This document shows, one piece after another, positions 2,720 to 62,299 of a DNA stretch of 64,000 nt. The position numbers were made by a program, and so were the translations under genes. Within the stretch, counting starts at the first letter, position 1. Every line of letters starts with the position of its first letter. The stretch spans positions 7,497,175 through 7,561,174 of the forward strand of contig NC_134032.1 of NCBI RefSeq assembly GCF_964204645.1. Direction: 5' to 3'. The notes beneath the pieces are model-generated. The model did no database searches and had not been told where the DNA came from. It saw nothing but the letters and a program-made list of their open reading frames with translations. This stretch comes from Tubulanus polymorphus (taxonomy: Eukaryota; Nemertea; Palaeonemertea; Tubulaniformes; Tubulanidae).

Positions 2720-3803
2720 TTAACTCATATGAAATTGGTTGATCATGAATACAAGAATAAAGATGGCGTGATAGAGACTACGAAGAAAACTGAAAAGGTC
2801 AAGGTCGATGGAAAACTGGATAAACTGGTTGACATATTCCAAGAAAATTTAGGTCGAAAGTTTTGTCGGCACGTCTTTAACATCAGGCATCAGTACAAAA
2901 CACTGAAAGAGAAAAGGTTTACTTTAGACGAAACTGAATGTCAAATACATATACACTTTAGTGAAAACTATAGCTTAAAATACCATGAGGCAATCCAATC
3001 TACTCATTTTGGAGCATCGAATGCACAGGTAACGCTCCATACTGGCTTAGTTTACACAAAAGAAGAAACAATCTGATTTGCATCTATATCGTATGTGTAG
3101 GCGCCATGACCCATCAGCAATTTGGGCGCACCTATAACCAACTTCGACTACTTATCCCAAACTTTTCCAGGTACCAACAGAGCATATTTTGTATCTGATG
3201 AACCTACAATTCAGTATAAATGCAAGTCAAATTTTTCCTTCTGTCCACTAAACCATATAATTGGAATATGGCCTATGTAAATTGGTCATTTTTAGAAGCG
3301 GGCCATGGAAAGGGGGCTGCCGATTGGATCGGAGGTACCCTCAAGAGAACAGCCGACCGGCTAGTTTCACAAGGGAACAACATTCCTGATAGTAAGACAT
3401 TATTTGAATTGTTGTCGGCGCACAGAAATGTTAAATTATTTTATGTGACCGAGGAGCAGGTGTAGTCATTAGACAGAGATTTAGATAACATCAATTTAAG
3501 ATCAATCCCTGGTTTATGATCCTTTACTCATTGGTAAGTACTGCATTAGTTGAATACGATAAAAAAAACATTTCCGTCCATCATAGAGTTGCTGATGAAG
3601 AGTCAGTCAGGGTAAGCTGCATGCATAAAATTGGTCAAAATAGGTACTGTTGGCCACCAAAGGCTGATAATGATGTTTGGTATGATTATGATGACATAGT
3701 TACTTTAATACCACCACCAGAACCTGTAACAGAAAGGCATTTCCAAGTGAAGCCTGACAATTGGCGGGAGGTTATGACACGATACGAAGAATGGACACGC
3801 TGA
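2720..3803 (+). pseudogene. decayed transposon-type protein gene
   Basis: Three consecutive protein-like blocks lie in three different frames: 2729-3076 (115 codons), about 3183-3465, and 3516-3803. They read as one protein interrupted by frameshifts and stops. Block 1 has HFSENY and THFGASNAQVTLHTG. Block 2 has FVSDEPTIQYK and FLEAGHGKGAADWIGG. Block 3 is a basic/acidic C-terminus with CWPPKADNDVWYDYDD. From memory, blocks like these (SENY, VSD.P..QY, HGKGAAD.GG) recur together in repetitive uncharacterised invertebrate ORFs; the spaced D and E residues suggest an RNase H-like transposase, but that is inference. No intact frame remains, and splicing could explain only part of the breaks. Confidence 0.6.
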
Positions 3804-10254: not shown

Positions 10255-11660
10255 TAAATTCCTTGTTTCTGAGTTGAAATCATCGCCCTTTTATTTCCGC
10301 AAGTGACTTTTTAGGTATTTTCCGAGTTTCTGAGCTGAATTCATCGCCCTTTTAATTTCGCAAGTGACTTTTTAGGTAAATTCCAAGTTTCTGACCTGAA
10401 ATCATCGCCCTTTTAATTCCGCAAACGACTTTTTAGGTAAATTCCGAGTTTCTGAGCCGAAATCATCGCCCTTTTAATTTCGCAAGTGACTTTTAGGTAA
10501 ATTCCGAGTTTCTGAGCCGAAATTATCGCCCTTTTAATTTCGCAAGTGATTCTGTAGGTAAATTCCGAGTTTCTGAGCTGAAATGATCGCTCTTTTAATC
10601 TCGGAAGAGACTTTTTATGTATTTTCCGAGTTTTTGAGCCGAAATCATCGCCCTTTTAATTTCGCAAGCGATTTTGTAGGTTAATTTCGAGTTTCTGAGC
10701 TGAAATGATCGCTCTTTTAATCTCGGAAGTGACTTTGTAGCTAAATTCCGAGTTTCTGACCTGAAATCATCGCCCTTTTAATTTCGCAAGTGACTTTTTA
10801 GGTATTTTCCGAGTTTTTGAGCTGAAATCATCGCCCTTTTAATTTCGCAAGTGACTTTTTACGTAAATTCCGAGTTTCTGACCTGAAATCATCGCCTTTT
10901 TAATTCCGCAAACGACTTTTTAGGTAAATTCCGAGTTTCTGAGCCGAAATCATCGCCCTTTTAATTTCGCAAGCGACTTTTAGGTAAATTCCGAGTTTCT
11001 GAGCCGAAATTATCGCCCATTTAATTTCGCAAGTGATTCTGTAGGTAAATTCCGAGTTTCTGAGCTGAAATGATCGCTCTTTTAATCTCGGAAGAGACTT
11101 TTTATGTATTTTCCGAGTTTTTGAGCCGAAATCATCGCCCTTTTAATTTCGCAAGCGATCTTGTAGGTAAATTCCGAGTTTCTGAGCCGAAATCATCGCC
11201 CTTTTAATTTCGCAAGCGACTTTTTAGGTAAATTCCTAGTTTCTGAGCCGAAATGATCGCCCTTTTAATTTCGCAAGTGACTTTTAGGTAAATTCCGAGT
11301 TACTGAGCCGAAATCATCGCCCTTTTAATTTCGCAGTGACAACCGGGATCACACACAACTCACCAGAACAACAATGGATTCTTTTCAAGAGAGCGATGTC
11401 ACAACGCTACATTTCTGAAGTGAAATCATCGCATTTCACAAGTGATTTAGGTAAATTCTGAGTTTCTGAGCTGAAATCATCTTTTTTTAATTTCGCAACT
11501 GACTTTTTGAATAAATTCCGAGTTACTGTGAGCTGAAATCATTGCCCTTTTAATTTTAATTAAGTGATTTTGTTAGGTACATTCTGAGTTTCTGAGTTAA
11601 TCATCGCCCTTTTTTCACGAGTGTTTGTGTAAATTTAGAGTCTCTGAGCTGGACATCACT
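10255..11660 (+). repeat. 61-bp satellite array, ~22 units with higher-order pattern
   Basis: The unit is about 61 bp: TTCCGAGTTTCTGAGCTGAA, then ATCATCGCCCTTTTAATTTC, then GCAAGTGACTTTTTAGGTAA. Variant monomers (CTCGGAAGAGAC, CCGCAAACGAC, GATTCTGTAGG) recur in the same order about 485-490 bp apart (about 10,390-10,670 and 10,870-11,160), which indicates an eight-monomer segmental duplication. The array is regular to about 11,335, interrupted by about 65 bp of unrelated sequence, then increasingly degenerate to about 11,660. No coding frame persists through it. Confidence 0.93.
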
Positions 11661-47070: not shown

Positions 47071-48890
47071 TTATTCAACATTACCAGCATCTTTATACAA
47101 CAATACATCAAATACATCAACAAATGTCAATCGTCTCCTGTTTCGGGTTGCAAACTTGTTTATGACTACGTCAATGTCTACCTCGGAACTATAGTGCACT
47201 GTCATGAGCGCAAGCCCATTGAGTCGATCCTGTGTCATTGTTGTGCGCATGTAAGATTTCAATCTTCTGAGGACCGAGATCGAGCGTTCACACTCACAAC
47301 TGGTAACAGATATTGTGCCCAGGATACGCAGAGCAGCGGATATGTTAGGAAATGTAACTACTTCAACTACAGGCAGCAGCTTGCGGGGAGACTACTAGGA
47401 ACTGTTTCTTGTTTTTTCCAGTACACGTCCCACAAATGTATCTCAGAGTTAATAGATTTGTAACTAGGGAGATCATCCTAATATTCAACACAAAATTCAA
47501 GAAAATCTTTTTTCCATTCATCACATTTCAAAACGTTGGACAGAAGTACAGAAAAACTCTTGAGGTTTTTTTCTTGCCCAATGAAGAACCTAGTAGTGAT
47601 TTGCTCATGAAGATGGTCAAGGAATGGTATTGATATACTCGACGAAAATATTCTTCGATGCTATCAGCTGGTGCGTTTTCGCGATTCCTTTGCCACAGGT
47701 TCGGGGTTTAGAAATATCAACTTCTAATTTCTCTGCCAATGAACAAGCTTGGTGATACCAGACTAGATGATTAGCACGTAATGAACTAAGGGAGCACTTA
47801 ATAGCTGAATATGTTTGTATGAATTGGCTGCATCTTGCTCGACGTACTGAAGTTTAACAGATAGATTACAAGTCAACTGAATAATTTCTCTAGTTATCAC
47901 AAACGCAACGATAAAGGGGAAGTCAGCTATGTCCTTCCACAGCCCATTGGCCTTACGAGTAGATCCGCTGTTCCAATTACCTCCGACATTGTTTGCAATA
48001 TCGGTAAGTGTTGCTACAACGGGTTCACACGATTCGGTAAATGTTTCCAACACATCGATTCTCTGTACCCATCGGGTTTTGCAAACATCTAGTAACTTCT
48101 TTTTTCGATTCAGGCACAATTTCATTAATTTTTTCATTCAGAAGTTCCTGTTTTTTGCAGTAAATGTAAAGAACCTACTTCATTCACCTAGGGTGTCTAG
48201 CATGTTCCTGATTACCCGTATGGTACAAGCTGCCATTACACATAAATTCAATCTATGTGCAACGAATGAATATAGACTGCATGTTGGTATTTTTCATGTA
48301 ATATGAAAGATAGACCTTTATTCTTCCCTGCAACATTCCCTGCTCCATCATAGCACTGGCCACGACAGTCATTCATATGAAGGCCTAATGAAGTTATAGC
48401 ATTCTCAATGTACTGAGCTAGCTGGTTTCCTGAAACGCCATCAGCACAGTGAATAAAACGATGAAACATTTCTTGGATTTCACCCAAGGTGTCAACATAA
48501 CGCAGAATCAGTGCCAATTGTTCCTTGTTGCTAGAATCCTGAACTTCGTGACCAATCATAGAGAAAAACTTGTTTGCCTTAATATCATCCAATATCGTTT
48601 TCTCTATTTGTTCTCCAACAATATGAATAATTTCATTCTGAACAGTTTTGGAGCGGTAGGTAGCAGAGTTTGAACATGATGCAAAGTGTTGCTGCAATAC
48701 TGTATCAATACTGTATCAATACTGTAGCTTTTGGATATTCCCACCATTGACATTGCTATCATAGCTACTGGAATCATCACGATGGCCTCGATATGGTTAA
48801 TTCTGCCTGCCACAAAATAACACTGTTTCTATGATCGATTTCAGTTCTTTCGATTTTCCTCGATTTGTTTCTGGTGTTGAATGGACATTT
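47071..48890 (-). pseudogene. hAT transposase (DUF4371/ZMYM-type), middle and C-terminal half
   Basis: Read on the - strand from the insertion junction: SIQHQKQIEENRKELKSIIE, then RGHRDDSSS, then 48,697-48,248 (IQ..VGEQI, FFSMIGHEVQDSSNKEQLAL, CRGQCYDGAGNVAGK), then 48,137-47,763 (KTRWVQRIDVLETF), and finally CECERSISVLRRLKSYMRTT with MTQDRLNGLALMTVHY, the hAT C-terminal dimerisation block. Frames are broken by stops and shifts, and a 12-bp tandem ATACTGTATCA lies at about 48,700-48,728. The position where relatives carry the first catalytic Asp (ADE) reads GHE, so it was probably dead or altered even without the shifts. The N-terminal half lies at 61,314-62,299, beyond the 12.4-kb insertion. 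Confidence 0.85.
48885..48890. repeat. target-site duplication, left copy (ACATTT)
   Basis: Identical to 61,314-61,319. It flanks the 12.4-kb element inside the hAT gene. Confidence 0.8.
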
Positions 48891-49250
48891 TATGGTGGCT
48901 GATAAGGGCCAAACGCATTAATTTTTACCCGACCTCGATTATAGAAAAACGCAAAATGAAACCTACAGAGCAAAAACGAAAACTTCGTTTTTGCTACCCC
49001 GCAAAAACGAAATATTATAGCGCAAAAACGAAAATATTCGTTTTTGCTCTATGATTTTTCATTTTTGTGGGGTAGCAAAAACGAAAAAATTAAATTCGTT
49101 TATGCGCCCTAGCAAAAACGAACTTAAGTTTTTGCTACCCGCAAAAACGAAATATTATAGCGCAAAACGAAAATATTCGTTTTTGCTCTATGATTTTTCG
49201 TTTTTGCTCCATAAAATTCGTTTTTGCGCCCTAGCAAAAGTTATCAGTAT
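48891..49250 (+). repeat. left terminal inverted repeat of the 12.4-kb element
   Basis: After the first ~95 bp it consists of alternating GCAAAAACGAA and TTCGTTTTTGC words, so it is self-complementary as well as matching the right end. A segment of about 130 bp (GCAAAAACGAAATATTATAG to CTCTATGATTTTTC) is duplicated within it, making this end longer than the right end. Confidence 0.85.
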
Positions 49251-49347
49251 CGGGTTAGAATTTTGCAAGTCGACTTCATCATGAATCTCAACATCATGAA
49301 TCTCAATCGCGAAACTTCCATCATGCATAATTGATCATATGATTATA

Positions 49348-50471
49348 CAGTAAACTCCTCCTAAACTCACCCGATAATTTCGTCCGACATAGCCGGAATC
49401 CGACTTAGAAGACCAATTTTCTTAAATATTTTGGAACTCATTCATTAAAACTCTTTCCATGAGAACTTCCTGAAAATCAGATCCTGAGACTCTGCGAACT
49501 TTATTTCGAAAAAAAAAATTTTCAAATATGATGATTCAGCTTGTTTCTGATGATCTAGCAATTCTGGGGTCGTTAGGGGCCCCCAAAATGTCAAAAAAAA
49601 TTTTGACCTACTTTCGGGTCATTCGGGTACCCCTACCCCTAACTGCAGCTTCATATTCTCTCTATATATCTCCATTATATCCACTGCGTCATGTATAGAC
49701 ACCGTATACCAGCCGCTGTGTCTATTTATAAAGCTTCCAATTTAGCCCTACTTTGTTTACACAACTTGACCTCAATTCACCGATAATGATCTTCGTGACC
49801 TAGATAGATTTTATTCATACACCCGCCAGCGAACTCGAACAAAAACAAGTCCCGGGGGTTGCCAGGACTACCAGGCATACATACAAGCCGTATAAGCTTT
49901 ATACATTGCCATTTAGACAGTAAGGGGATATATAGGTCATCCAACTGTGACGTGGCGTCACACCCCGCAAAAAACATGCGTTCTGGAGACTGTGTCGTCC
50001 GGTCACAGTTAGCATGGAAAGAGTTTTAAGGACTATGGTTGCTATTATAAGGTTTATTCACTGTAAAAACTGTTGTATACAGAAAAAAACGTAAACAAAT
50101 GATAAAATGTGTACTACATTTTTGGTTGTTTCGGCTTGTATCATCTGTCGGATGTACGATGGATTGGCCCTATCTAAATCTGTAGCCGGGAATCCCCTCG
50201 CCAGCATTCACATGCCGGGTGCGACCTAACATGCCAGCAGTCGTTCTGCTGTCAGCGTCATTTATCCGGGATTCGAACCCATCCGCAGAATTCATTTACA
50301 GTTTGGAACCGTCAGCACCGGCCCTACGAGCATCATTGGTTCGGTCATAAATTGTCAGCATTCACTGGGGGTTACTTTATCTGTATATAGGAAACTGAAA
50401 ATGTTTTCTATATTGCACAGAGTTGAGCTGTTATACGACTCGGCCGGATCCGACTTAGGCAGAGTTTACTG
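49348..50471. mobile_element. CAGT-ended MITE (pogo/Tc1-like), TA target
   Basis: CAGTAAACTC and GAGTTTACTG terminal repeats are each flanked by TA. A subterminal CCGACTTAG.. / CCGACTTAGGC pair is also present. TA duplication with CAGT ends is typical of pogo/Tigger-type elements. No transposase frame. It includes a tRNA-like SINE head at about 50,270-50,340. Confidence 0.75.
50265..50340 (-). repeat. tRNA-derived SINE head
   Basis: A perfect B box GGTTCGAATCC lies on the - strand (50,269-50,279), preceded by GGGCCGGTGCTGACGG. The tail contains GACAGCAGAACGACTGCTGG. The A box is weak. It is a SINE rather than a tRNA gene. Confidence 0.45.
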
Positions 50472-50938
50472 TATGATTATGTTGTGGGTAGGGAAATTAG
50501 GGAAATAAGGTAAAATTCAACCTGAATCGGACAGAGAAGACCCTCGAATCTAAAGAAAATAACATATGAACGTTTCATTTTAGAGATGATATTTTATTTT
50601 GAAATTCATAAAAAACTACAAGTACCTCTAACAGCAATAAAAAAGCGTTCATGAATTTTACTTAATTCGAACCATAATGTAATGTTAATAAAACATGTAC
50701 ACAAAATTATGTGTTGTCATACGAATACGTAATGTTATACGTATTACAAATTACTCGACATAAAATCCAAGTTTGTTTTAAAAACAAGTTTATGACATAG
50801 CGATTGTCTGCATCACCATCACAAGATGCGTAAATGGACGCAACAGTTTCAAAAATTAAAACAAATTACCCGACACCAATTAAAGTTTGGCATTAAAATA
50901 GTCTATGATAGCTTATATTCCCGTAACAAAGGAACGCC

Positions 50939-53678
50939 TTATGAATCTGTAAAGGTGTGACTTGCACCTTTGACAGCATATTCCATGAACATTTTGAAAT
51001 CCTCATAGGTGTTATGCACAGGAATTGACAGAATGTTAGCACAAGTATTAGCGATCGGAAACTCTCTTGTACAGCCCTCAACATCATCAGGATGTCGGAA
51101 CTGTAACGTCAGACTTGGGTTGAATCCCAAAATTGGTATTTCTCCAAGACCGGTGATGAATCTAATCAAATCTGTAAAGCCTTCTGAAAAATAAAGTCGA
51201 TCGTATATATCGTACATTATCGTCCAAACCTCTTCTCAATCTGAAAGATGCAATGTAAGAATTAAGGGCGTAGGAACAGTAAATATCGTCGCAAATTTTA
51301 ATTACATGTATTACATGTTGGTTAACTCTAACCAACTTTTGAGCAACTGGCCCCAGGCTGATATCTAACGTAGCTTACTATGTAAAGTAATTTCGAGAAT
51401 AAAGACTGATTTTTGTCGATGATTACCCAATCCACGTAATTCAATTTAGATATCGTATATCACAAGTGTTATTATCATTTTCAATTTGTCTCAACTTCCC
51501 TATATTCTCCTCCATAATCATTATGTTAGTAAAATGATACTTTACTTACTGCCCTAAGGGTTCACTGAGTCTGTGGATTGTAAAGAACTCGGAGAGTCCT
51601 TTGACAAGCCGTTCTTTCTTCCCGAAAGTGGCAAATGCCATGCTACCAGCGACAGCGACAACATTTTCATACGTCGACATGATCTCATTGAAGGTTTCCT
51701 CATTTGAACAATTGCTAATCTAAATGATACATATAGTTACTGTTTTAGATGTAATGATGAAAATAACGCGATGCAGGTCTTGCATCACCTGCTTTGAATT
51801 GGGAGAGAGGAAATGCAAGCCTCATAATGTTCATTGTCGTGGTATGAAAAACATTGGAAACCTGGACACCACCACATGTAATAGATATAGACCACAGAGC
51901 TTTTCTTCTTATTTTGCTTAATTTATATAGCTATTTAGATTATTCAAGGTAGGCACCATTTCTAAAATATGCTTCTCATCTCCAGCTGCTTTTTCGGAAA
52001 ATCAGTATTCTCTGTCGTGCAGCCGCTTATCATTCCATACATGAAGTCCTTCATGAATGTTAGCAGTGGACCTCGGTGTATTATACTAAACGATATAATC
52101 CGCCCAGCAGCATAATAATATTGTTTGTCGAGCGCTAAAATTGAAGAATACATATTTTAGTACGTTCGTTATTATAGCCACCAATTTTCCAGTAATTCAA
52201 ACTTACCTGCTGCGTTTGAAGTAAGAAACTTTCGGTTTGTTCCCCCGGAAAAAAAGACTGGATTCGCTTAGCTGTTTCATGAACAGGGTTAAAAACTCTC
52301 TGGTTGGTCCACCACCGTCTATCGCATCCTCGCCGACGAACAAAACCTCCAGTCTCTTTCGAGGGCTCCAGTGATTTCGGAGCGCAGCTCTACATCATAT
52401 ATAGAAAACTTCACTTCTGTCCCCAACGTTGATGAAGTTTGACCCATCAATGTATTCATCCGGTTGGAGGGAATTCAAGAGATCTTTCAGTGAAATATTC
52501 TCTTCCATGTCACGTAGTGTAACAAAAGAAGCACCGTCACTGCAAAACAAAGTTGATCAATAGATTATAGAAACTATGTAAAACTTGGCCTATGTAAATT
52601 TCAAAGCTGGTTCTTCGTAAAGAGCTAATCGTTTTGTTGACTATCTACCTTTCAGTGGAAGTGTTCTTGCACATTTCACCAATTTGACCATCATCTCGTC
52701 TGGAATTTTCAGATCCAACGACTGTGGTTAGATTTGTCAGCTGGCCTGGCATCGTTGATTGATTAAGTTCCTGGCTCTGCTTTGTATAAGTCGAGTATTG
52801 GGCAGTTTCATGAACAAGATTAGTAGGATAATCTTCTGGTAAATGCATTGACACAGTAGTTGTTTCGTTATAAGAAAACGATCGATTGGTGCCTCCAGTT
52901 GATTCGAGATTGAGTGGTGAATTTATGTGGCTCGTTCTGGGAGTTGAGTGCAAAGGTTGAGCAGTCTGTATCAAATTTGGTACCGTAGTCATCGAGTACT
53001 GAAATTGCGGCATGGAATAATTGAATGTTGTATGCACTTGACTATTGCTAGATGTCGAGATTAGCGACTGTCGAGAAGGCTGCGCCGTCAGTTGGTTCAG
53101 AGTTGTGAGTGGCCACTGTGACGGTTCGTGACTGTGACTGGACATGGAGGTTGTACTAACATATCCATGAGTGTTAGACTCTGTTAATCGCATCTGACGT
53201 TGCACTCCATTTTGCGGTGGCGTTAACAAGTAAGATGAACAACTATCTACGGCAGGATTCGGCCGTTCGACTGTAGAACGAGACGTCTCCTCATTCGACG
53301 GTGCATCTGATTGTATAGACCTAGTATGTAGGAATAATCGAATTGGATATGTCCTCATTGCAGATATGTATTTCCCCTGAGTAAATAATTCACCATCAAT
53401 ATTCTGGGGCAAAACGTTACCGGTGAAATCGCCAACATACGTAGCTATCTAAATGTTCTATTCTTAAGTTATTGACTGTGGATAGACCCATTGGGAAATT
53501 GTTCAGATATGCTTTGGCTAACCTCTGCATATAACGATGATTTATCAATATCCATATTGACCGTTCCACCACCACGACTTATCGGAACAACATCGTGTTT
53601 CCCATCCACTTTTGCGTGCTTCCAGCCTACCTTCACTTTGCAATTAATTTCAACATAAATCAGTACGGCATGGGCCAA
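50939..53678 (-). pseudogene. HECT-type E3 ubiquitin ligase gene, G2E3-like, decayed
   Basis: Exons read on the - strand: 53,678-~53,480 (KVKVGWKHAKVDG..SRGGGT, a ubiquitin-fold-like N-terminal block), 53,448-52,649 (Ser/Thr-rich linker), 52,539-52,207 (LEVLFVGEDAIDGGGPTREF, start of the HECT N-lobe), 52,134-~51,955 (YYYAAGRIISFSIIHRGP), 51,719-51,550, and 51,183-50,939 (FITGLGEIPILGF, then FPIANTCANIL with the catalytic-type Cys, stop at 50,939). Good splice sites are seen (GTAGAT, GTAAGT, GTAAGT donors). Breaks: an in-frame TGA at 52,395-52,397, a shift at the A-run 52,249-52,255, another near 51,965, and a missing stretch before the last exon. HECT ligases accept ubiquitin on that Cys and pass it to substrates. 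It lies inside the 12.4-kb TIR element, so it is probable transposon cargo. The first exon has no ATG; 5' exons are not found. Confidence 0.75.
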
Positions 53679-54667
53679 CTAAAATAAAATCATAACTTAA
53701 GACGAAATTTTCTATGCCTAGGGTCCCTTAAGACCCCCTTTTTTCGGGGGCCTAGGGCACTTTTAATCAACAGTTTTTGTCCAGGTGTGATTCTACCTCA
53801 GAATCATAGTATTTTATGTGCTGATTCAGAAAATGTAACTTAAGACGAGATTTTCCGTGCCTAGCGCCACTTAAGACACCCTTAAAACCCCCTTATGCTC
53901 CCTTTGAGAAAAATCATCTTTTATCAACGGTTTTCCTTCCATAATTCTCCAATCAATGATTTAATTAAACAGTAAACTAAATTTAAGAACAATAGTTTAT
54001 TTCTGCATAGTTTCTTTCAATTCTTCATGTAACTAAAATTTGCAATTAAAAATCAATCCTTTTACACAGCGTATATTTGTCAGACAAGCCCAAAAATATT
54101 GCTTGGTTTCAGTAACCTACTGTGCCATTAAAGGGCCACCCCGTGATTTGACATTTCTCAATTTTTGGTATATTTACAAAAATCTTGATCTAGATAGGGC
54201 GTCTCGGTCAAACTTATAATTTTGTAACTTTGCACCGGGAATTGTTTATTCTGTTTCAGCTATATATTAGAAAACTGAAAACTATTAAATCAGTATCATA
54301 ATCCATCAATACATCTCAGTCATCATCGATTCATCATCACCTACGTCGTCACTCGCAAGGTCACTATTGTCAATGAGATTTTCCGGACATTGATTACCTT
54401 GAAACATCAGATGTATGCTATTTATTCTTATTTGGTACCATTTATTAAATCTTGATAATTTCTATCAACATGACAAATATTTCTTATTTTGGACATGAAT
54501 TTAGTGTGTTTGGTCTCATTGAATATGAGATGTCCCATTCGTCCTTTCGTAAAATCAACCACTTAGCATTGATACCATTAAACATTCTTTACTATCCAGG
54601 AATATCCAAATTAGGAACAGTTTAACACTCATACACTGGATAAACTTTGATACTCACAAGAGCAAGC

Positions 54668-54696
54668 TTTCACCTACATTCTGTAGGCATCGTCAG
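54668..54696 (-). ncRNA. hammerhead-like core in left Penelope terminus
   Basis: On the - strand: CTGACGA, stem CCTAC-AGAAT-GTAGG, then GAAA. The hammerhead core allows any base at the fifth position of CUGANGA. Helices I and III are not obvious. Confidence 0.6.
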
Positions 54697-54810
54697 GCTT
54701 AATGTGACGTCATCAGATGTTGTTGATGTGACGTCACAGCCGGATCTCGTCAGCTGGTCCGATCTCTCCTGGGTGTCCGTATCGGTCAGAAAGTTAATAA
54801 AATCAAAATT

Positions 54811-57022
54811 TTGGAAAGTAAAGCGTTAAAATTCAGTGACGATGTACACAAACAGTTGCCAGGACAACAACAGCTGATCGAGAGTCATATCGAGGCGACG
54901 CATGCGCGTACGAACCAGGAAGTGAAAACACGACATATCCAAAAATTCAATTCGTCTTATTTCAAAGAAAGAACCTCCAAAGAAGTCAAATTTGGCTACG
55001 GAATGTATCTCGAAATGGGTAAGGAACTGTTCGAACCGTATTTTGTCAGATCCCGAATTGTCTGTTTTGAAGAAAGGCCTTAATTTCGCGGTAACACCTA
55101 AAAAACCGCCGGTTTTCGATTTTGTGACTGCCACTGAATCGGCTTGCCGATCACTCAAACGGAGTGATGCGGACGAACTCAGAGCCAAGGTGTCGAATAT
55201 TATTATCAAAAATAAGGTTGTGAAGGATCAGAACATTAGTAAAGATGAGTTTAAGGCAATTTCTGACCTTAAGAAAGATGAATCCATAGTCATTTTACCT
55301 GCAGATAAGGGACGTGTCACGGTTGTTTTGGATAAATCAGACTATATTGACAAGTGTAACGACCTGTTGAAAGATGAAAACACTTATCAGAAACTTAAAA
55401 GTGATCCTACGAAAAAGTTTAAGAAGGAATTCGTCTCAGTTCTTAAAGATTTGAAAGATAATGGTACGATCCCTCACGATCTCCATAAGAAAATATACCC
55501 GACAACCGATCAACCACCCAGATTTTATGGTTTGCCGAAGATACATAAAGCCAATGTACCTATGAGGCCCATTGTGAGTTCCATTGGCACCATTTCGTAC
55601 GAATGTGCTAAATATTTAGCGATGATTTTATCTCCCTTAGTAGGGAAGACGATACATCATGTTAAAAACTCTACTGAGTTCTGGAAGGAAGTTTGTGGTC
55701 TAGTCATTAATGATGATGAAGAACTACGCTCATATGACGTTTCGGCCCTCTTTACTAGTGTCCCTATAGACAAAGCTCTAGTGATAATTCGCCAAAGATT
55801 AGAGGCAGATGATACTCTTTTTGAACGTTCACACATCGGTATAGATGACATTATTAAACTACTGAGCCTCTGTTTAAAATGTACATACTTCATGTTCCAA
55901 GGTCAGTACTACCTTCAAATCCACGGAGCAGCCATGGGCTCCCCAGTTTCACCAATCGTGTGTAATCTATATATGGAAGACTTTGAACAGAAAGCCATCG
56001 CCACTGCCCTCCATCCGCCACGTATATGGAAGAGGTATGTAGATGATACTTGCACAGTACTTAAGAAGTGTTTTTCTCAGTATTTCACTGACCATTTAAA
56101 CAGCATTGATGATGATATTAAATGGACTACCGAGGGTGAGGTCGAGTTACAGGCTTCGTCACAAGCCGATCTAGAGATTTGCAGTGTAGAGAGGGCTCTA
56201 GCGTTTCTCGACACATATGCGGTCATCAATGAGGATGGGTCGATTCGTACTAAAGTATTCCGAAAAACCACACACACAGACCAATATCTAAATTTCAACA
56301 GCAACCACCCGTTAGAACACAAAAGGGGTGTAGTTAAAACCCTTCTACACAGGGCGGACACCATAGTTAGTGATGATAGTGAGAGACAGTCGGAGAAACA
56401 ACATATTAAGGAGGTTCTCTCATGGAATGATTACCCTAATTGGGTCTTCAACAAAGTCACCATGCTTCCGAAGCCCAAACCTGTAGTCAGAAATAAGCGA
56501 GACACCCAGGCTCCGCGTAAGAGATCGGTCGTAGTACCATATGTGAAGGGCATGTCTGAACAAATCAGACGGGTGATGAAAGACTACAACATTAGTGTGT
56601 ATTTTAAACCGGTGAACACGTTACGCCAGTTATTAGTTAGACCGAAGGACCCGGTACCTAAAGAACGCATTACAGGACCGGTGTACCATGTTAAATGTGA
56701 ATCTTGCGATGCGAGTTATGTTGGTGAAACTGAGCGCTCCTCGAGAGCCCGGTTTGGTGAACACCGTCGACCTAGCTCTATGACGTCAGAGGTATCCCAA
56801 CACATCCATACTGACAATCCTGATCACTCTGTTGATATAGGCAACACAGACATTTTGACGGTGGAACCCCGGTGGTTCGAACGAGGTGTTCAGGAGTCAT
56901 TTTGCATATACCTGAGACACCCCACGCTGAATAAAGACTTTGGGAGATTTGCTCTACCCCCTGTATGGAATAACATCTTTAAGGCAGCAGATGGCGCGCG
57001 GGAGCCTTCACAGACCAGCTGA
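54811..57022 (+). pseudogene. Penelope-like RT / GIY-YIG endonuclease ORF, one frameshift
   Basis: An N-terminal segment starts at ATG 54,811 (KFSDDVHKQL..HIQK). It must shift frame between about 54,933 and 54,960 to continue as the long open frame that ends at 57,022 (ISKKEPPKKSNLAT.., then 676 codons). Domain order in the long frame: RT with GLPKIHK (about 180), YDVSALFTS (248-256, catalytic Asp), GAAMGSPVSP (312-321) and KRYVDDT (YVDD at 349-352), then a C-terminal GIY-YIG domain with VYHVKCESCDASYVGETE near 570-590 and the R..EH signature. This is the standard Penelope-like architecture: target-primed retrotransposition with a GIY-YIG nickase. Apart from the one shift no stops are seen. 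A sequencing or polishing error could explain the shift. Confidence 0.88.
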
Positions 57023-57075
57023 CGAGATCCGGCTGTGACGTCACATCAACAACATCTGATGACGTCACATTAAGC

Positions 57076-57104
57076 CTGACGATGCCTACAGAATGTAGGT
57101 GAAA
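57076..57104 (+). ncRNA. hammerhead-like core in right Penelope terminus
   Basis: CTGACGA at 57,076-57,082, stem CCTAC-AGAAT-GTAGG, GAAA at 57,101-57,104. This copy is in the sense direction of the element's transcript. Hammerhead motifs in Penelope-like terminal repeats are established in the literature. Confidence 0.65.
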
Positions 57105-57354
57105 GCTTGCTCTTGTGAGTATCAAAGTTTATCCAGTGTATTAGCATTGATGGTTCAATTGCCCTAGATTCGCCCATTCGTCATAACAGGAATCAAATTA
57201 ATGCTCCGATTCGTCCTTCATTTGTCCTTTCTGTGTATGGAAATATGTATCTTAAAACGGTATCTATCGTTTACTAGAAAGAAAAAATATCAAAACACAG
57301 GAAATCCATGAAAAGTAAATTTATTTTCGAAACAAACAATTCAGCTCTCAATAT

Positions 57355-58566
57355 CTAGTGGGAAAGATTTTGGTAAAACGCTTTTGTATCCGAATTACTG
57401 ATTACCGGCATTTCTCCCTGACATAAACGCATCAGATCATTGAACTTGTCGGCGCTCAACTTCGGTTTTTCATCGTACGCCGGCACTGGATATAGGATCA
57501 TCTCTACGAAGTTTCGTCTTGACTTTAGATCTAAGGGTGCGAATACGTCATCTTGATGCGACATCTTGAATCCGATTATGCTGGGTGAATCTTTGTTAAC
57601 TTGCAACTCGCGAACTTTTTTCCAATCAATTTCCAACGAGATTCTGCACACTGGTAGCAGATGGCCCTCACTATCTGGAAGAAAGTATTTGATGGTTCTG
57701 GACTTCCGACTGTTTATTTGTTGTCTCATGGATTCATTTGATGTAATGTGAGACTTAATCCAATGGCGCTGTTCTCTCAAATCACCTTTATGCCAATATG
57801 AGAGGAAGATTTGCTCTCTGCGTTCGTTAGTGATACTGTCGCAAACATAGGATTTTTGCAGACATCTTCCTATATTCTTGCATCTATCGCCAATTGCACG
57901 TTTTGATTTAGTGATGTCACTTTTTTCTGTTGAGTATTCAATTCCTCGATTTCTATTTTCTTTCACTAATTTTCTTCTTGCCTTTGATCGTTTTTCTGTT
58001 GGATTTTCTGGAGGAAGGAGGGGTGATATTGGCTCTTGTTCTTCAACTTCTACTATATAGATTTCTGGGGATATTTCGACGTTCATCAACGAATCTTCTG
58101 TCACCGAAGGTTGAGGGTTACAAACTGGGCAATTCTCCTGAGTAAAATGGTTATAACACAGCATGCTTCTGCATGAGTTACATGCAGCAAAAACTTCTTC
58201 TTCGCAACTTTTCAATTCGCACAAACAGACGTTTGTTATATCCCTGAATACAGGACGCTCAGTTTCCTCTGCTCTCTCAGGAGATGGTGGAATATTTTCG
58301 ATATAATTAAACATGTTTACATTTTCATGAGATTCTCCACAATTAGCTTTTAACAGATCTGTCATGGGAACATCGTTATCTTCATCTTCTGAAACTATAT
58401 CAGTATCGACTATTTTTCCGTACCACCACCTTTTGCTCCACCGATAACGAATTCTTGCGCCTATCTTGTATTTGCTGTAACCTTTAACGAGCTCACACTC
58501 GCTTACAGAAACTAGATTTTTGGTGCCATCAGCGTCCCATTTCACAATTAACTCAGACGGTTCCAT
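57355..58566 (-). CDS. 403-aa Tudor-like / zinc-binding protein of the TIR element
   Basis: An intact frame. Residues 5-55 (IVKWDADG...ARIRYRWSKRWWYGKIVD) look like a Tudor/SH3-type fold. Residues 114-149 hold a zinc-ligand cluster (CLC, C, C-x2-C, C-x2-H, C-x2-C) with AACNSCRSMLCYNHF. A basic stretch (193-225) is followed by GDRCKNIGRC and SYWHKGDLREQRHWIKSHI (256-274). The last two blocks resemble a conserved region in uncharacterised, repetitive invertebrate proteins that I associate with transposons (from memory). The C-terminus ends FYQNLSH without a DDE domain. Acceptor TTCATATAG lies immediately before the ATG and donor CAACG|GTAAGT at 58,683, so a 5'UTR intron (58,567-58,682) is likely and the gene looks transcribable. 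Its role is unknown; DNA or chromatin binding for transposition is a guess. It is co-oriented with the HECT gene. Confidence 0.65.
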   Translation of the reverse strand: MEPSELIVKWDADGTKNLVSVSECELVKGYSKYKIGARIRYRWSKRWWYGKIVDTDIVSEDEDNDVPMTDLLKANCGESHENVNMFNYIENIPPSPERAEETERPVFRDITNVCLCELKSCEEEVFAACNSCRSMLCYNHFTQENCPVCNPQPSVTEDSLMNVEISPEIYIVEVEEQEPISPLLPPENPTEKRSKARRKLVKENRNRGIEYSTEKSDITKSKRAIGDRCKNIGRCLQKSYVCDSITNERREQIFLSYWHKGDLREQRHWIKSHITSNESMRQQINSRKSRTIKYFLPDSEGHLLPVCRISLEIDWKKVRELQVNKDSPSIIGFKMSHQDDVFAPLDLKSRRNFVEMILYPVPAYDEKPKLSADKFNDLMRLCQGEMPVISNSDTKAFYQNLSH

Positions 58567-58739
58567 CTATATGAAAATAAGAATATGTATTCAGGTAAAG
58601 TGATACGAATTTCAATATGATAATAAACATTGTATTTAGAAATATCAAAATATACGATTAGGCTCCGTAAAGCAAAACTTACCGTTGTTAGTGTAGATTT
58701 TGTAAAATTCGTTTCACCACAGATGACAAGCAAAACTCA

Positions 58740-60215
58740 ATGACGATGAATGAAATATCCAACAATAGGAAACGTTTTTGAAATTTGTCAGGTTGCTAAA
58801 CGACTCAGTCAAACAGAATCAATAATGAAATGTAGGCCATATCGTTTTTGTTTTTAAATTTCACTCATTCGCCCCACTTGTAGTAGCATTGCAAAATCGT
58901 TACTATAGCAATGCATATTTAACAAAAGGGCGAATGGAACCATTCGCCCTTTTGTGAGAAAGGTAATTGGGCTTAATATTTCATATGACCTTAGTGGATT
59001 TTTAAAAATCGTATTTCCAGTAAGAATAGACATAGAATAGACAAAAATACTTCATAAGGCCATAGAAACCATCCCCATACTGTTCCTGGTGGGCTCAGTT
59101 TAAAACTGTAAAAATTCCCATTCGCCCCTTCGTCCTACTATTGACGATATATCAAATCAAGGTTTTTCAATGTCAGGTGTTGAAGCCGATAAGCGTGGAA
59201 GCGTTTTATCAATTGATTTCGAAGAGGCGGCCTAAAAATCGTTCTAAATTCCGAAATATCGGTAACTAAAGTTTTGAAGTGGGCCGCGGATCACCAGGCA
59301 CCAGTCTTACGGAAAACCGAAAACACTGAATCAGCTGTTCATTATCACCAAACATTTACATCAAACTTAACAGATACAAATCATACTCGCTTATGATGAA
59401 CTTGCTCCATTTTTTACGAGTACAGCCAATTCCTCCCCGAAGCTGAATATTAGACTACACCCTTTGTACGAATTATATATAGGTAAGTGAGCGTTTGACT
59501 GGTACACGCATGATCCGGCGACCCACTTCAAACTTTACTTACTAATATGTCGGAATTCAAACAACTTTTCTAGCCGGCTCTTCTACATCAATTGATAAAA
59601 ATAGGTCCACGTTTATCGGCGTCAATATCTGATATCAAACCACCCCGGTTTAATATATATGATAGGGCCCCATGTGGGGCCCCAATCCGCTAACCCATGT
59701 TTCATAGAAACCCTTAATGTGACACTAGAGTTTAATGTGACACTCAAAGTTTGTTTTCTCGGCATTCTGGCATCAATCTTGTCAGGGCCCTGGCCCCTGC
59801 AATCACATTAATCCTTGCTAGGATTGGGTTTGTAGGTGGGGCCAGAGTCACCAAGGTCCAGATCAAGGCCTAGTTAGGTCATTCCAGCGATCAGCAATTT
59901 AAGGAGAATTTTGACAGCTTATCACTAACCTTTTGCTGCTATGCATTCACCAAGACCAAGGTCCACCAGAATTTTTTCCAGCTAAAAGAGAATACCAATA
60001 GTTAAGCGCTAGTCCATAGGCTTCAATTTTCAGTTGATTAGTTCATAGATTACTAAAATCATAATTACGAAAGGCACAGTTAGGTAGATAATTTAGATAT
60101 TCCGTTTTGACGCTACACATAATTTCAGTGGGCATCATGAGGCTAAAACTTAGGCCTAGGCCTATAAGGCGATGTTCATATCATATCATACATACTCGGG
60201 CATGGGTGAATTAAT
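58740..60215. other. non-coding interior of the 12.4-kb element
   Basis: No gene is seen. A short GGGCCCCA/TGGGGCCC hairpin lies at 59,665-59,682. Numerous AGGCCTA words occur, as across the window. Confidence 0.4.
58922..58955. repeat. perfect 16-bp-arm hairpin
   Basis: ACAAAAGGGCGAATGG and its reverse complement are separated by AA. The ATTCGCCC word recurs nearby at about 58,868 and 59,110, hinting at a small foldback family. Confidence 0.75.
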
Positions 60216-60217
60216 TT

Positions 60218-60802
60218 GTTGAATTAATTTGTTTATTTCGCGAGCGGAACTCAACGGCAGTCCAAACAGCTGCAATGTGGCTGCGACCCCACGCAACGGA
60301 CCCGCAGAATACATTAAGTTCATGAGCTATTGTTTGTATTGGGGTGATAAATTAGTAGTTTGCATAGAGGGAGGGAAGCCAGAGTTCAGGGCAGTGGCTG
60401 AAGTTAGTAAACAACCTACGTAGTTGCTTACGTCGCACACAAGACACTGAATAGAAGATAGGTGAAAGTGACGTGAGTATCTGCGTAGGGTTGCTGGTTA
60501 TAGCGGCAGCCTTGAGCTCTGGTATGGCTAGGAAGTAAACAAGTAATAAACTCGTGACGTATAACATATGTAGAAGTATACCTCACGAGTAACATGAAAT
60601 AAGATAAAAAGGGAGGGTCAGCACAGTAAGGGGGAGAGAGATGCTAGAGTGGCGGAGAAGCCTAAAAATACGAGCTGTAGGAAGGAATAAGAATTGTGCG
60701 GGAAAATAAAGAAAGAACGTAGACCCACGAGAAGAGTTGTTATTATTCCGGAGTCAGAGGGATATCACTTATCGGATTAATCGGAACCAACAACGACAAC
60801 AC
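60218..60802 (+). mobile_element. possible LTR
   Basis: The segment begins TGTTGAATTAATT and ends GACAACA, with AATAAA near 60,706 followed by a GAAGAGTTGTTATTATTCC tract, then GTGGCCCCCACAAC about 18 bp later, which resembles a primer-binding site. No gag/pol follows, so it would be a solo or truncated LTR. The boundaries are a guess. Confidence 0.3.
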
Positions 60803-61087
60803 GAGGGGAGAACGCAACGTGGCCCCCACAACAATTGGTTGAGAAACTCAACCCCACAACATTTGCATCGATAGGCCTAATATAATGTGACTCACCTTGT
60901 CGTCCATCTTTGTACGTACGAAGGCTATGTACAAATAGGTACTGCAAATTAGCGCTTGCTTGGCCTGTCTTTGTCTCCCACGTAGTATAGTATCTAGTAT
61001 GGCTACCTATAGTTACCTACTATATATAAAAATCGATTTGATGAATGACTTGTTTTGTTTCTTTTTTCATTCATCCGCTACGCTACG

Positions 61088-61313
61088 GCGTGGCATGAAT
61101 ACGGGGCAAACTGGCGCAAAAACGAATTTTATGGCGCAAAAACGAAAAATCATAGAGCAAAAACGAATATTTTCGTTTTTGCGCTATAATATTTCGTTTT
61201 TGCGGGATAGCAAAAACGAAAAGTTCGTATTTGCGCGGTAGGTTTCGTTTTGCGTTTTTCTATAATCGAGGTCGTGTGAAAATTATTGTATTTGGCCCTT
61301 ATCAGCCGCCATA
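61088..61313 (-). repeat. right terminal inverted repeat of the 12.4-kb element
   Basis: The reverse complement starts TATGGCGGCTGATAAG and follows the left end through GACCTCGATTATAG and AAAAACGC into the GCAAAAACGAA words. It lacks the internal duplication of the left end. Confidence 0.85.
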
Positions 61314-61319
61314 ACATTT
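61314..61319. repeat. target-site duplication, right copy (ACATTT)
   Basis: Matches 48,885-48,890. Confidence 0.8.
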
Positions 61320-62299
61320 GGATTTCAATGGGAATAGATTTGTTTTCCATATATCTATGGAAATTTAACTCTTTAAAAACAGCATCATGGTGCGTGTCCG
61401 AGTTTGATTGATGAGCGTTTAATGTGCGGACAGCAGTTTGCCAGTCCCTCAATGAAGAGTCTGGATAGTTGAATGCCACCCTTCTCAGTAGATAGTTTTC
61501 CAAAAATACACAAGGACGACAGAATGCACCATCAAGTGATTTTGAATAGCTTAGCCATTTATAGTCATCAAGCCATTTATGCCTGAAAGCACGTGATCCT
61601 TAAGCATCAACCGCAGGTGTTCGAGGGAAGCTATAGTCTAAAGGAGGTTTCCACAGATTGTCAACAGCACTTTTCAATTCTATGTTGGTTAATTCGTACT
61701 TTTTCAGCTTGGTGTACATACAGACATCCTTAGACAGGAATCTCGTTTCACCTGAACTAAAATAAAGTACATTGTGCAATAACTTATATGGAGAATCATA
61801 TGACAAAATACATATATGTAGTGCAATGAAAATCGTTATCGTTGAGTGATTGTTATTCAGGTTCATATCCATGAATGATAAAGACATCTTGCTGGATGTT
61901 TCATTTTTCCACTCATAATTAATTTTGTATTAGAAATCTGGAATGGAATTATTTGAAAAAAGCAGATTTTGCGTTCATGTGACTAACCTGAATATTACTG
62001 AAAAAAATCAAAAGTGCATACCTTGACAAGTAATTGGCATTTTCATCAATTAAAACTGAAGACAGAGGATCTTGATCCGAATCACTTGTAGAATCGTTGT
62101 CACTTAGATCTTCTGCAGCGGATGAAGAATCTGGACCCTGTTCCTCCCTTTCATCATTTTGTCGTGTATCACCATCAACACCAGCATATGTAGAGATGTT
62201 GCATGAAGGTAGGTTTTCTGTAACGGATAGAGATTCAGGGTTTTCCTGCTCAGGAAGTGTACTTTGACCATCTGTTAAACTGGAAAAAATGGTTTGCAT
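61314..62299 (-). pseudogene. hAT transposase N-terminal half
   Basis: Exons on the - strand: 62,299-~62,022 (Ser/Asp/Glu-rich leader, donor G|GTATGC) and 61,751-61,314 (acceptor TTTAGTTCAG). The latter reads WKPPLDYSFPRTP, HKWLDDYKWLSYSKS, then DGAFCRPC, a TTF-type zinc finger with C-x2-C, and LRDWQTAVRTLNAH, ending ...IPIEIQM at the insertion point. An in-frame TAA at 61,600-61,602 interrupts it. Its C-terminal partner is at 47,071-48,890. Together they cover the TTF finger, DDE core and dimerisation block of a ZMYM/DUF4371-type hAT transposase. It could have been a domesticated gene before decay; nothing here decides that. Confidence 0.8.

Follow-up and report, generated by a model that had tools for sequence, protein, structure and literature searches.

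Structure of the locus

As shown in Table 1, the window analysed here, a 64-kb stretch of Tubulanus polymorphus DNA (C8:7497175-7561174, in an assembly of 267.8 Mb and 77 contigs), contains a decayed hAT transposase gene that is interrupted by a 12.4-kb element with terminal inverted repeats (TIRs). This element, which carries the remains of a HECT E3 ubiquitin ligase gene and several later insertions, is the subject of this report. The element proper occupies 48891-61313 (12,423 bp) between two exact copies of the 6-bp target site duplication (TSD) ACATTT, and the junctions read ACATTT-TATGGTGGCTGATAAGGGCC at the left and GGCCCTTATCAGCCGCCATA-ACATTT at the right. The inverted arms 48880-49067 and 61137-61324 are 90% identical over 188 nt, a span that takes in 11 nt of flanking sequence at either side; measured from the first base of the element, 166 of 188 positions match without gaps. 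Within the element the TIR is 177 bp long and its two arms are about 90% alike. A preliminary description made from the letters of the window had recognized a TIR element with a 6-bp ACATTT duplication inside a hAT gene, and the TSD, the inverted arms and the hAT frame through the joint bear this out. Its limits, 48885-61319, included both TSD copies; the element itself is confirmed at the narrower interval.

Excision of 48891-61313 together with one ACATTT left an open minus-strand hAT frame of 109 amino acids (aa) spanning the joint. In the genome this joined stretch was matched at 12 places, one of them the window. Three of the other 11 (C41:91329, C39:24015 and C10:6672079) are free of stops over residues 2-108 at 39-42% identity and align through the joint, which lies at residues 93-95 of the query; three more span the joint with internal stops. 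The claim that the two hAT halves join in frame is thus upheld through the joint by three uninterrupted paralogues, and its limit downstream is given below. Since both ends have a common TSD and one empty hAT site, the element arrived as one insertion and not as two miniature inverted-repeat transposable elements (MITEs). It entered the decayed hAT gene as a single unit with a 6-bp duplication.

Table 1. Features of the window element, its host site and its relatives. Positions without a contig name are those of the window.
Feature	Position	Strand	Basis
TSD left copy ACATTT	48885..48890	none	sequence
TSD right copy ACATTT	61314..61319	none	sequence
Left TIR, first bases TATGGTGGCTGATAAGGGCC	48891..49067	none	inverted-arm alignment
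Right TIR, six array motifs, last bases GGCCCTTATCAGCCGCCATA	61137..61313	none	inverted-arm alignment, motif count
Subterminal array at left end, 11 copies of the GCAAAAACG / CGTTTTTGC motifs	48966..49240	none	motif count in window
hAT downstream part, host site	47074..48715	-	PF14291 (DUF4371, 48251-48715) E 1.2e-17; PF05699 (dimerisation domain, 47074-47391) E 1.1e-9
hAT upstream part, host site	61320..61599	-	joined frame and genome hits to it
HECT E3 ubiquitin ligase gene, degenerate, its several exon pieces spread over different frames	50942..53678	-	PF00632 E 8.2e-11 on last exon; P0121 matches
Unit B, DUF7869 transposon fragment without its left end, the right inverted end (59117-59154) preserved	54411..59154	-	homology to C2:17679527-17683099 unit
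403-aa open reading frame, DUF7869 transposase without its DDE core (in-frame deletion of ~350 aa near 57642-57645)	57355..58566	-	N- and C-terminal DUF7869 matches
Penelope-like retroelement, reverse transcriptase frame 54926-57022	54574..57140	+	C9 and C2 copies uninterrupted at site
Young repeat, ~528 bp, near right end of element	60336..60863	none	at least 35 places at 98-99%
Dispersed repeat	53643..54409	none	~88-95% matches in many places
C1a relative, HECT open frame, TSD AATATG	C1:4406522-4416409		
C1b relative, TSD TAAAAC	C1:21785906-21794736	HECT -, PF24764 +	
PF24764-HECT pairs	C1:17443565-17445272; C6:16476991-16480685; C6:16897745-16899345		
DUF7869-like copies	C4:16758768-16762805; C10:8799302-8803339; C2:10163292-10167328; C8:6130531-6134621		

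The HECT gene in the window copy and in a second copy

The HECT gene of the window copy is a pseudogene, with frameshifts and a missing stretch. Its pieces lie in three frames and match P0121, a G2/M phase-specific E3 ubiquitin-protein ligase-like protein of T. polymorphus, at 38-65% in four stretches. The HECT domain and the exon pieces are alike in the two, but the window gene is broken and has no counterpart of P0121 residues 270-347. The exon at 50942-51235 is open, and by its HECT motif it would be the one with the catalytic cysteine. The HECT protein query found only five proteins at E ≤ 0.001.

A second copy with HECT lies at C5:11080730-11090165 and has TATGG ends on both sides. It matches the window element at about 81-96% at the ends and at element positions 1136-1662, 1989-2327, 3616-3794 (the HECT region) and 10315-11211. 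There is no match between element position 3795 and about 10256, and the C5 copy is without the nested transposon fragment that we call unit B. The last HECT exon is open in the C5 copy. At the DNA level the HECT stretch of the window has a good match to the C5 copy only, plus one match at 72%.

Relatives with open HECT frames and an integrase-core transposase

Of the 85 hits in the genome-wide HECT scan, six lie in 632-aa open frames with equal scores. Among the end matches listed, two of the six are enclosed by facing TATGG ends, both on contig C1 (C1a and C1b), with the ends 9,888 and 8,831 bp apart. Over the 101 bases read per side, the ends are identical within each element for 75-79 bases, and both elements have exact 6-bp TSDs. 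The first 20 terminal bases are the same in the window element and in the C1 relatives. The HECT ligase reported in the preliminary description is thus a real part of the lineage, as seen in the C5 copy and the C1 relatives.

In C1b, integrase-core exons are located in the 2.9 kb left of the HECT gene. Singly these exons fall below the Pfam cut-off; spliced, they match PF24764 with 87 bits (cut-off 26, E 1.7e-24, profile positions 63-173). In the spliced reading 36 residues separate the second D (DAGTEN) from the E (RIERWW), as in integrases, by our own reading of the motifs. A PDB search with the exons found nothing under E 0.76. The PF24764 gene is on the plus strand and the HECT gene on the minus strand, tail to tail. 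In this one element it is therefore shown, in part, that an integrase-core gene and a HECT gene lie between the same terminal sequence.

Across the genome, 40 PF24764 hits fall into 32 loci and the 85 HECT hits into 47, adjoining fragments being merged into loci in the genome tables. Three of the 32 PF24764 loci are less than 5 kb from a HECT locus (1.0, 3.0 and 0.9 kb) against 0.056 expected, with a Poisson P of about 3e-5; this figure presupposes evenly distributed loci, and transposons are not evenly distributed. All three pairs have PF24764 on the plus strand and HECT on the minus strand, as in C1b. A fourth PF24764 locus, in another orientation, is 8.2 kb from HECT, giving four within 10 kb against 0.112 expected. 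C1b is absent from the genome PF24764 scan, its single exons being too short, and the co-localisation count is therefore conservative.

PF24764 was not found in the window by the genome scan, by six-frame Pfam scans of most of the element interior (50000-54700 and 57100-61300 on the minus strand, 49200-54700 and 57100-61300 on the plus strand, with Pfam run on single open reading frames elsewhere in the interior), or by a tblastn search of the complete window with the relative's exons (best E 1.0). With its decayed HECT gene, the window copy agrees with the earlier suggestion of a non-autonomous derivative carrying a ubiquitin ligase. PHROGs and phage collection searches gave nothing useful for the window element.

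Comparison with IS3EU

In published descriptions, IS3EU elements have a 6-bp TSD, TIRs of more than 30 bp and TAYGG..CCRTA ends (PMC12730594), their termini are given as TA..TA (PMC10045372), and they are grouped with GingerRoot (PMC12730594, PMC10045372). Fungal TET+ IS3EU families are described there with transposase and alpha-kinase genes in opposite orientation (PMC12730594). The window element shares with IS3EU the 6-bp TSD, the TATGG..CCATA ends and the long TIRs (177 bp). An integrase-like DDE transposase, such as autonomous IS3EU elements encode, is present in the C1b relative, as read in part; none was found in the window copy, which in this differs from autonomous IS3EU elements. Like the fungal TET+ families, the lineage has a protein-modifying enzyme as second gene in opposite orientation. 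Unlike them, it has a HECT ubiquitin ligase in place of the alpha-kinase, and no TET/JBP gene was seen in the stretches scanned.

On these characters the superfamily of the window element is most likely IS3EU. The preliminary description had taken its interior genes for those of no standard superfamily and had considered a new lineage; at the level of the superfamily this has to be given up, as the ends fit IS3EU and relatives encode an integrase-core transposase. The superfamily itself is known, and the new part is the HECT ligase as second gene. In the open-licence literature searched, no paper combined IS3EU with HECT, and none combined G2/M E3 ligase, transposon and transposase.

The ends and their copies across the genome

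All 17 copies of the GCAAAAACG/CGTTTTTGC motifs in the window sit in the two ends of the element, 11 at the left and six at the right. The left-end query had 139 matches in the genome, and 40 of 112 candidates were scored. From the table of left-end matches, the two ends of 17 short copies (249-641 bp) could be paired, so that MITE-like elements with these ends exist. The preliminary description had named separately inserted MITEs as the finding that would overturn its reading; such copies occur, yet the ends in the window have one common TSD and one hAT site. The end pattern TAYGGYGGCTGATAAG, with one mismatch allowed, occurs 924 times in the genome against 22 times for the reversed control.

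Eight two-ended sites were read for their TSDs, L003, L004 and L039 having a single end each and standing outside the tally. The 6-bp TSD is exact at four, namely the window (ACATTT), C1a (AATATG), C1b (TAAAAC) and L007 (GTATAG), and five of six bases agree at L005, where the right terminus is short of three bases, and at L008.

At C5:11080714-11080745 the initial 16 terminal bases are doubled in tandem. Ends spaced 16 bp apart were also seen, among the matches listed, at C1:21434477/21434493, C1:3102430/3102446 and C2:9356278/9356294. Aberrant excision, or the use of one end a second time, may have left this arrangement.

Nested insertions

Several insertions are piled up in the 12.4 kb, much of which consists of a Penelope-like element and repeats. 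From the comparison of copies we infer that unit B is nested in the window element. Its relative at C2:17679527-17683099 has two ends that are inverted copies of each other, CGTCARTAGTAGGACGAA, and are internal to the window element; the ends of the units that hold DUF7869 do not coincide with the ends of the window element. The 403-aa frame in unit B had been described as a Tudor/zinc protein carried as cargo. This is not supported, and the interior is not one gene set. The frame matches the N- and C-terminal parts of DUF7869 (PF25273) proteins and, unlike intact members, is without the catalytic core; it is most likely the DUF7869 transposase of the nested transposon and not cargo of the window element.

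DUF7869 is a Pfam family of unknown function. Intact members have a predicted RNase H/DDE enzyme fold, with acidic residues that, in the models, close strands 1 and 4 and begin the last helix, as in DDE/RNase H enzymes. With this predicted fold, invariant acidic residues and mobile copies, DUF7869 looks like a DDE transposase family. A PDB sequence search with its profile gave at best a designed protein (E 0.49), and the family is not named in the open-licence literature searched. A separate DUF7869-like transposon of about 4.04 kb, with inverted ends CTGCCCTAGCATGATAAAAGGCAG and a 720-aa open frame, is present in copies that are 98.4-99.9% alike and appears, from this likeness, to have been recently copied. 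Its copies are flanked by 4-bp duplications, exact in three (CACT, TATT, AATT) and CACG/CACT in the fourth.

Unit B is interrupted by the Penelope-like element, which is bordered by an 11-bp duplication, TTAGCATTGAT, at 54563-54573 and 57141-57151. As in Penelope-like elements, a single reverse transcriptase frame lies between 132-bp inverted repeats. This frame matches RVT_1 at E 2.2e-4, below the Pfam cut-off, and PDB reverse transcriptases at E 5e-4; the name Penelope and the GIY-YIG part are our assumption. The element is a nested passenger, outside the finding on the HECT transposon. Since the C5 copy runs uninterrupted through the site of the ~528-bp repeat, this repeat is a later insertion in the window element. 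The dispersed repeat at 53643-54409 borders unit B on the left and runs into the HECT remains at their 5′ side, and so occupies the place expected for the left end of unit B and the 5′ part of HECT; it contains internal 48-nt direct repeats.

Proposed explanation and alternatives

The window element is, quite probably, an old non-autonomous IS3EU-type cut-and-paste copy, from a lineage whose second gene encodes a HECT E3 ubiquitin ligase. Several observations limit the hAT joint or weigh against parts of this reading. The joined hAT frame ends in a stop 14 residues past the joint, so that the hAT gene is itself broken; a genome DNA search found no empty hAT site at the DNA level, and neither Pfam nor a PDB search gave a match for the joined 109-aa stretch. 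Only two of the six open HECT copies are tied to ends among the end matches listed (the first 100 places of the end pattern, reaching into C2), and among the same matches no end without mismatch lies near the PF24764-HECT locus on C1. Past the first 20 bases the subterminal sequence of the window differs from that of the C1 relatives. No matching 6-bp TSD was found at two of the eight two-ended sites, the short copy L006 and the C5 copy; the search for further copies that had been proposed earlier thus gave exact TSDs with HECT in C1a and C1b and a HECT copy without a matching TSD on C5. The evidence for the transposase comes from one relative, C1b, in a partial reading, and the assignment to IS3EU comes from termini, TSD and relatives set against the published description. 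A weak HECT-like fragment (E 4e-6) at C8:6139629-6139838, absent from the genome-wide HECT scan, has a DUF7869 hit at a distance of about 7 kb and is 5 kb outside a DUF7869-like element.

On one alternative view the transposase of the element is the DUF7869 protein, and a single TATGG lineage has DUF7869 and HECT for its two genes. Their position on the same strand between the same ends and the predicted DDE-transposase-like fold of DUF7869 speak for this, but the DUF7869 stretches in the C2, C14 and C9 copies are without HECT and without TATGG ends, the C2 unit carries inverted ends of its own, and the C5 copy has the ends and HECT without DUF7869. Of 58 DUF7869 loci one, the window itself, has a HECT locus less than 10 kb away (0.20 expected; one C75 hit is omitted from this count), the other 57 have none, and no DUF7869 locus is near PF24764. 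Around eight DUF7869 loci no TAYGG ends with a 6-bp TSD were found. On the comparison of copies, the separate ends and the HECT-free loci this explanation is mostly refuted, and we regard it as unlikely. About as unlikely is that HECT was chance cargo, taken once by a MITE-like element, and that the lineage has no standing HECT gene. Most paired relatives are indeed short, and the window HECT DNA matches little besides the C5 copy; against this, the C5 copy has HECT with the same ends, two C1 elements hold open HECT frames between TATGG ends, and PF24764-HECT pairs occur at three further loci. A new superfamily or a Polinton relative, to which the 6-bp TSD and the large size would be suited, is very improbable. 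The ends fit IS3EU and a relative has an integrase-core transposase. Polinton core genes include protein-primed DNA polymerase B and packaging ATPase; as the preliminary description had noted, none is visible, either in Pfam scans of the listed open reading frames or in the six frames of most of the interior, and the Polinton identity was dropped on these scans.

For the IS3EU-type reading the following course may be proposed. The element went into the hAT gene in a single event, which left the observed TSD and would have involved a 6-bp stagger. The transposase was most likely supplied in trans by such relatives; it would have worked on the TATGG ends and may have recognised the subterminal GCAAAAACG array. 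The HECT protein, in what is the most tentative step, would mark a host or transposon protein for degradation. The window copy, in which no transposase was found, has a decayed HECT gene and gained the DUF7869 transposon, the Penelope-like element within it, and the repeats. We also lean, with more reserve, towards the wider statement that animals harbour an IS3EU-type lineage with a HECT gene permanently its own, this second gene standing where fungal families have the alpha-kinase.

Biological meaning

The window also holds a lesson for reading such loci, as one of the apparent cargo genes of a 12.4-kb element is most likely the broken transposase of another transposon. If the proposed reading is true, a ubiquitin ligase joins the enzymes carried beside the transposase by cut-and-paste transposons. 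Such elements would use the protein-degradation machinery of the host, and many of the HECT gene fragments in the genome would be explained. The C1 relatives look recent, with identical ends, exact TSDs and an open HECT frame, and an accessory role of the ligase is testable there. Invertebrate HECT gene models named "G2/M phase-specific E3 ligase-like" may be transposon genes.

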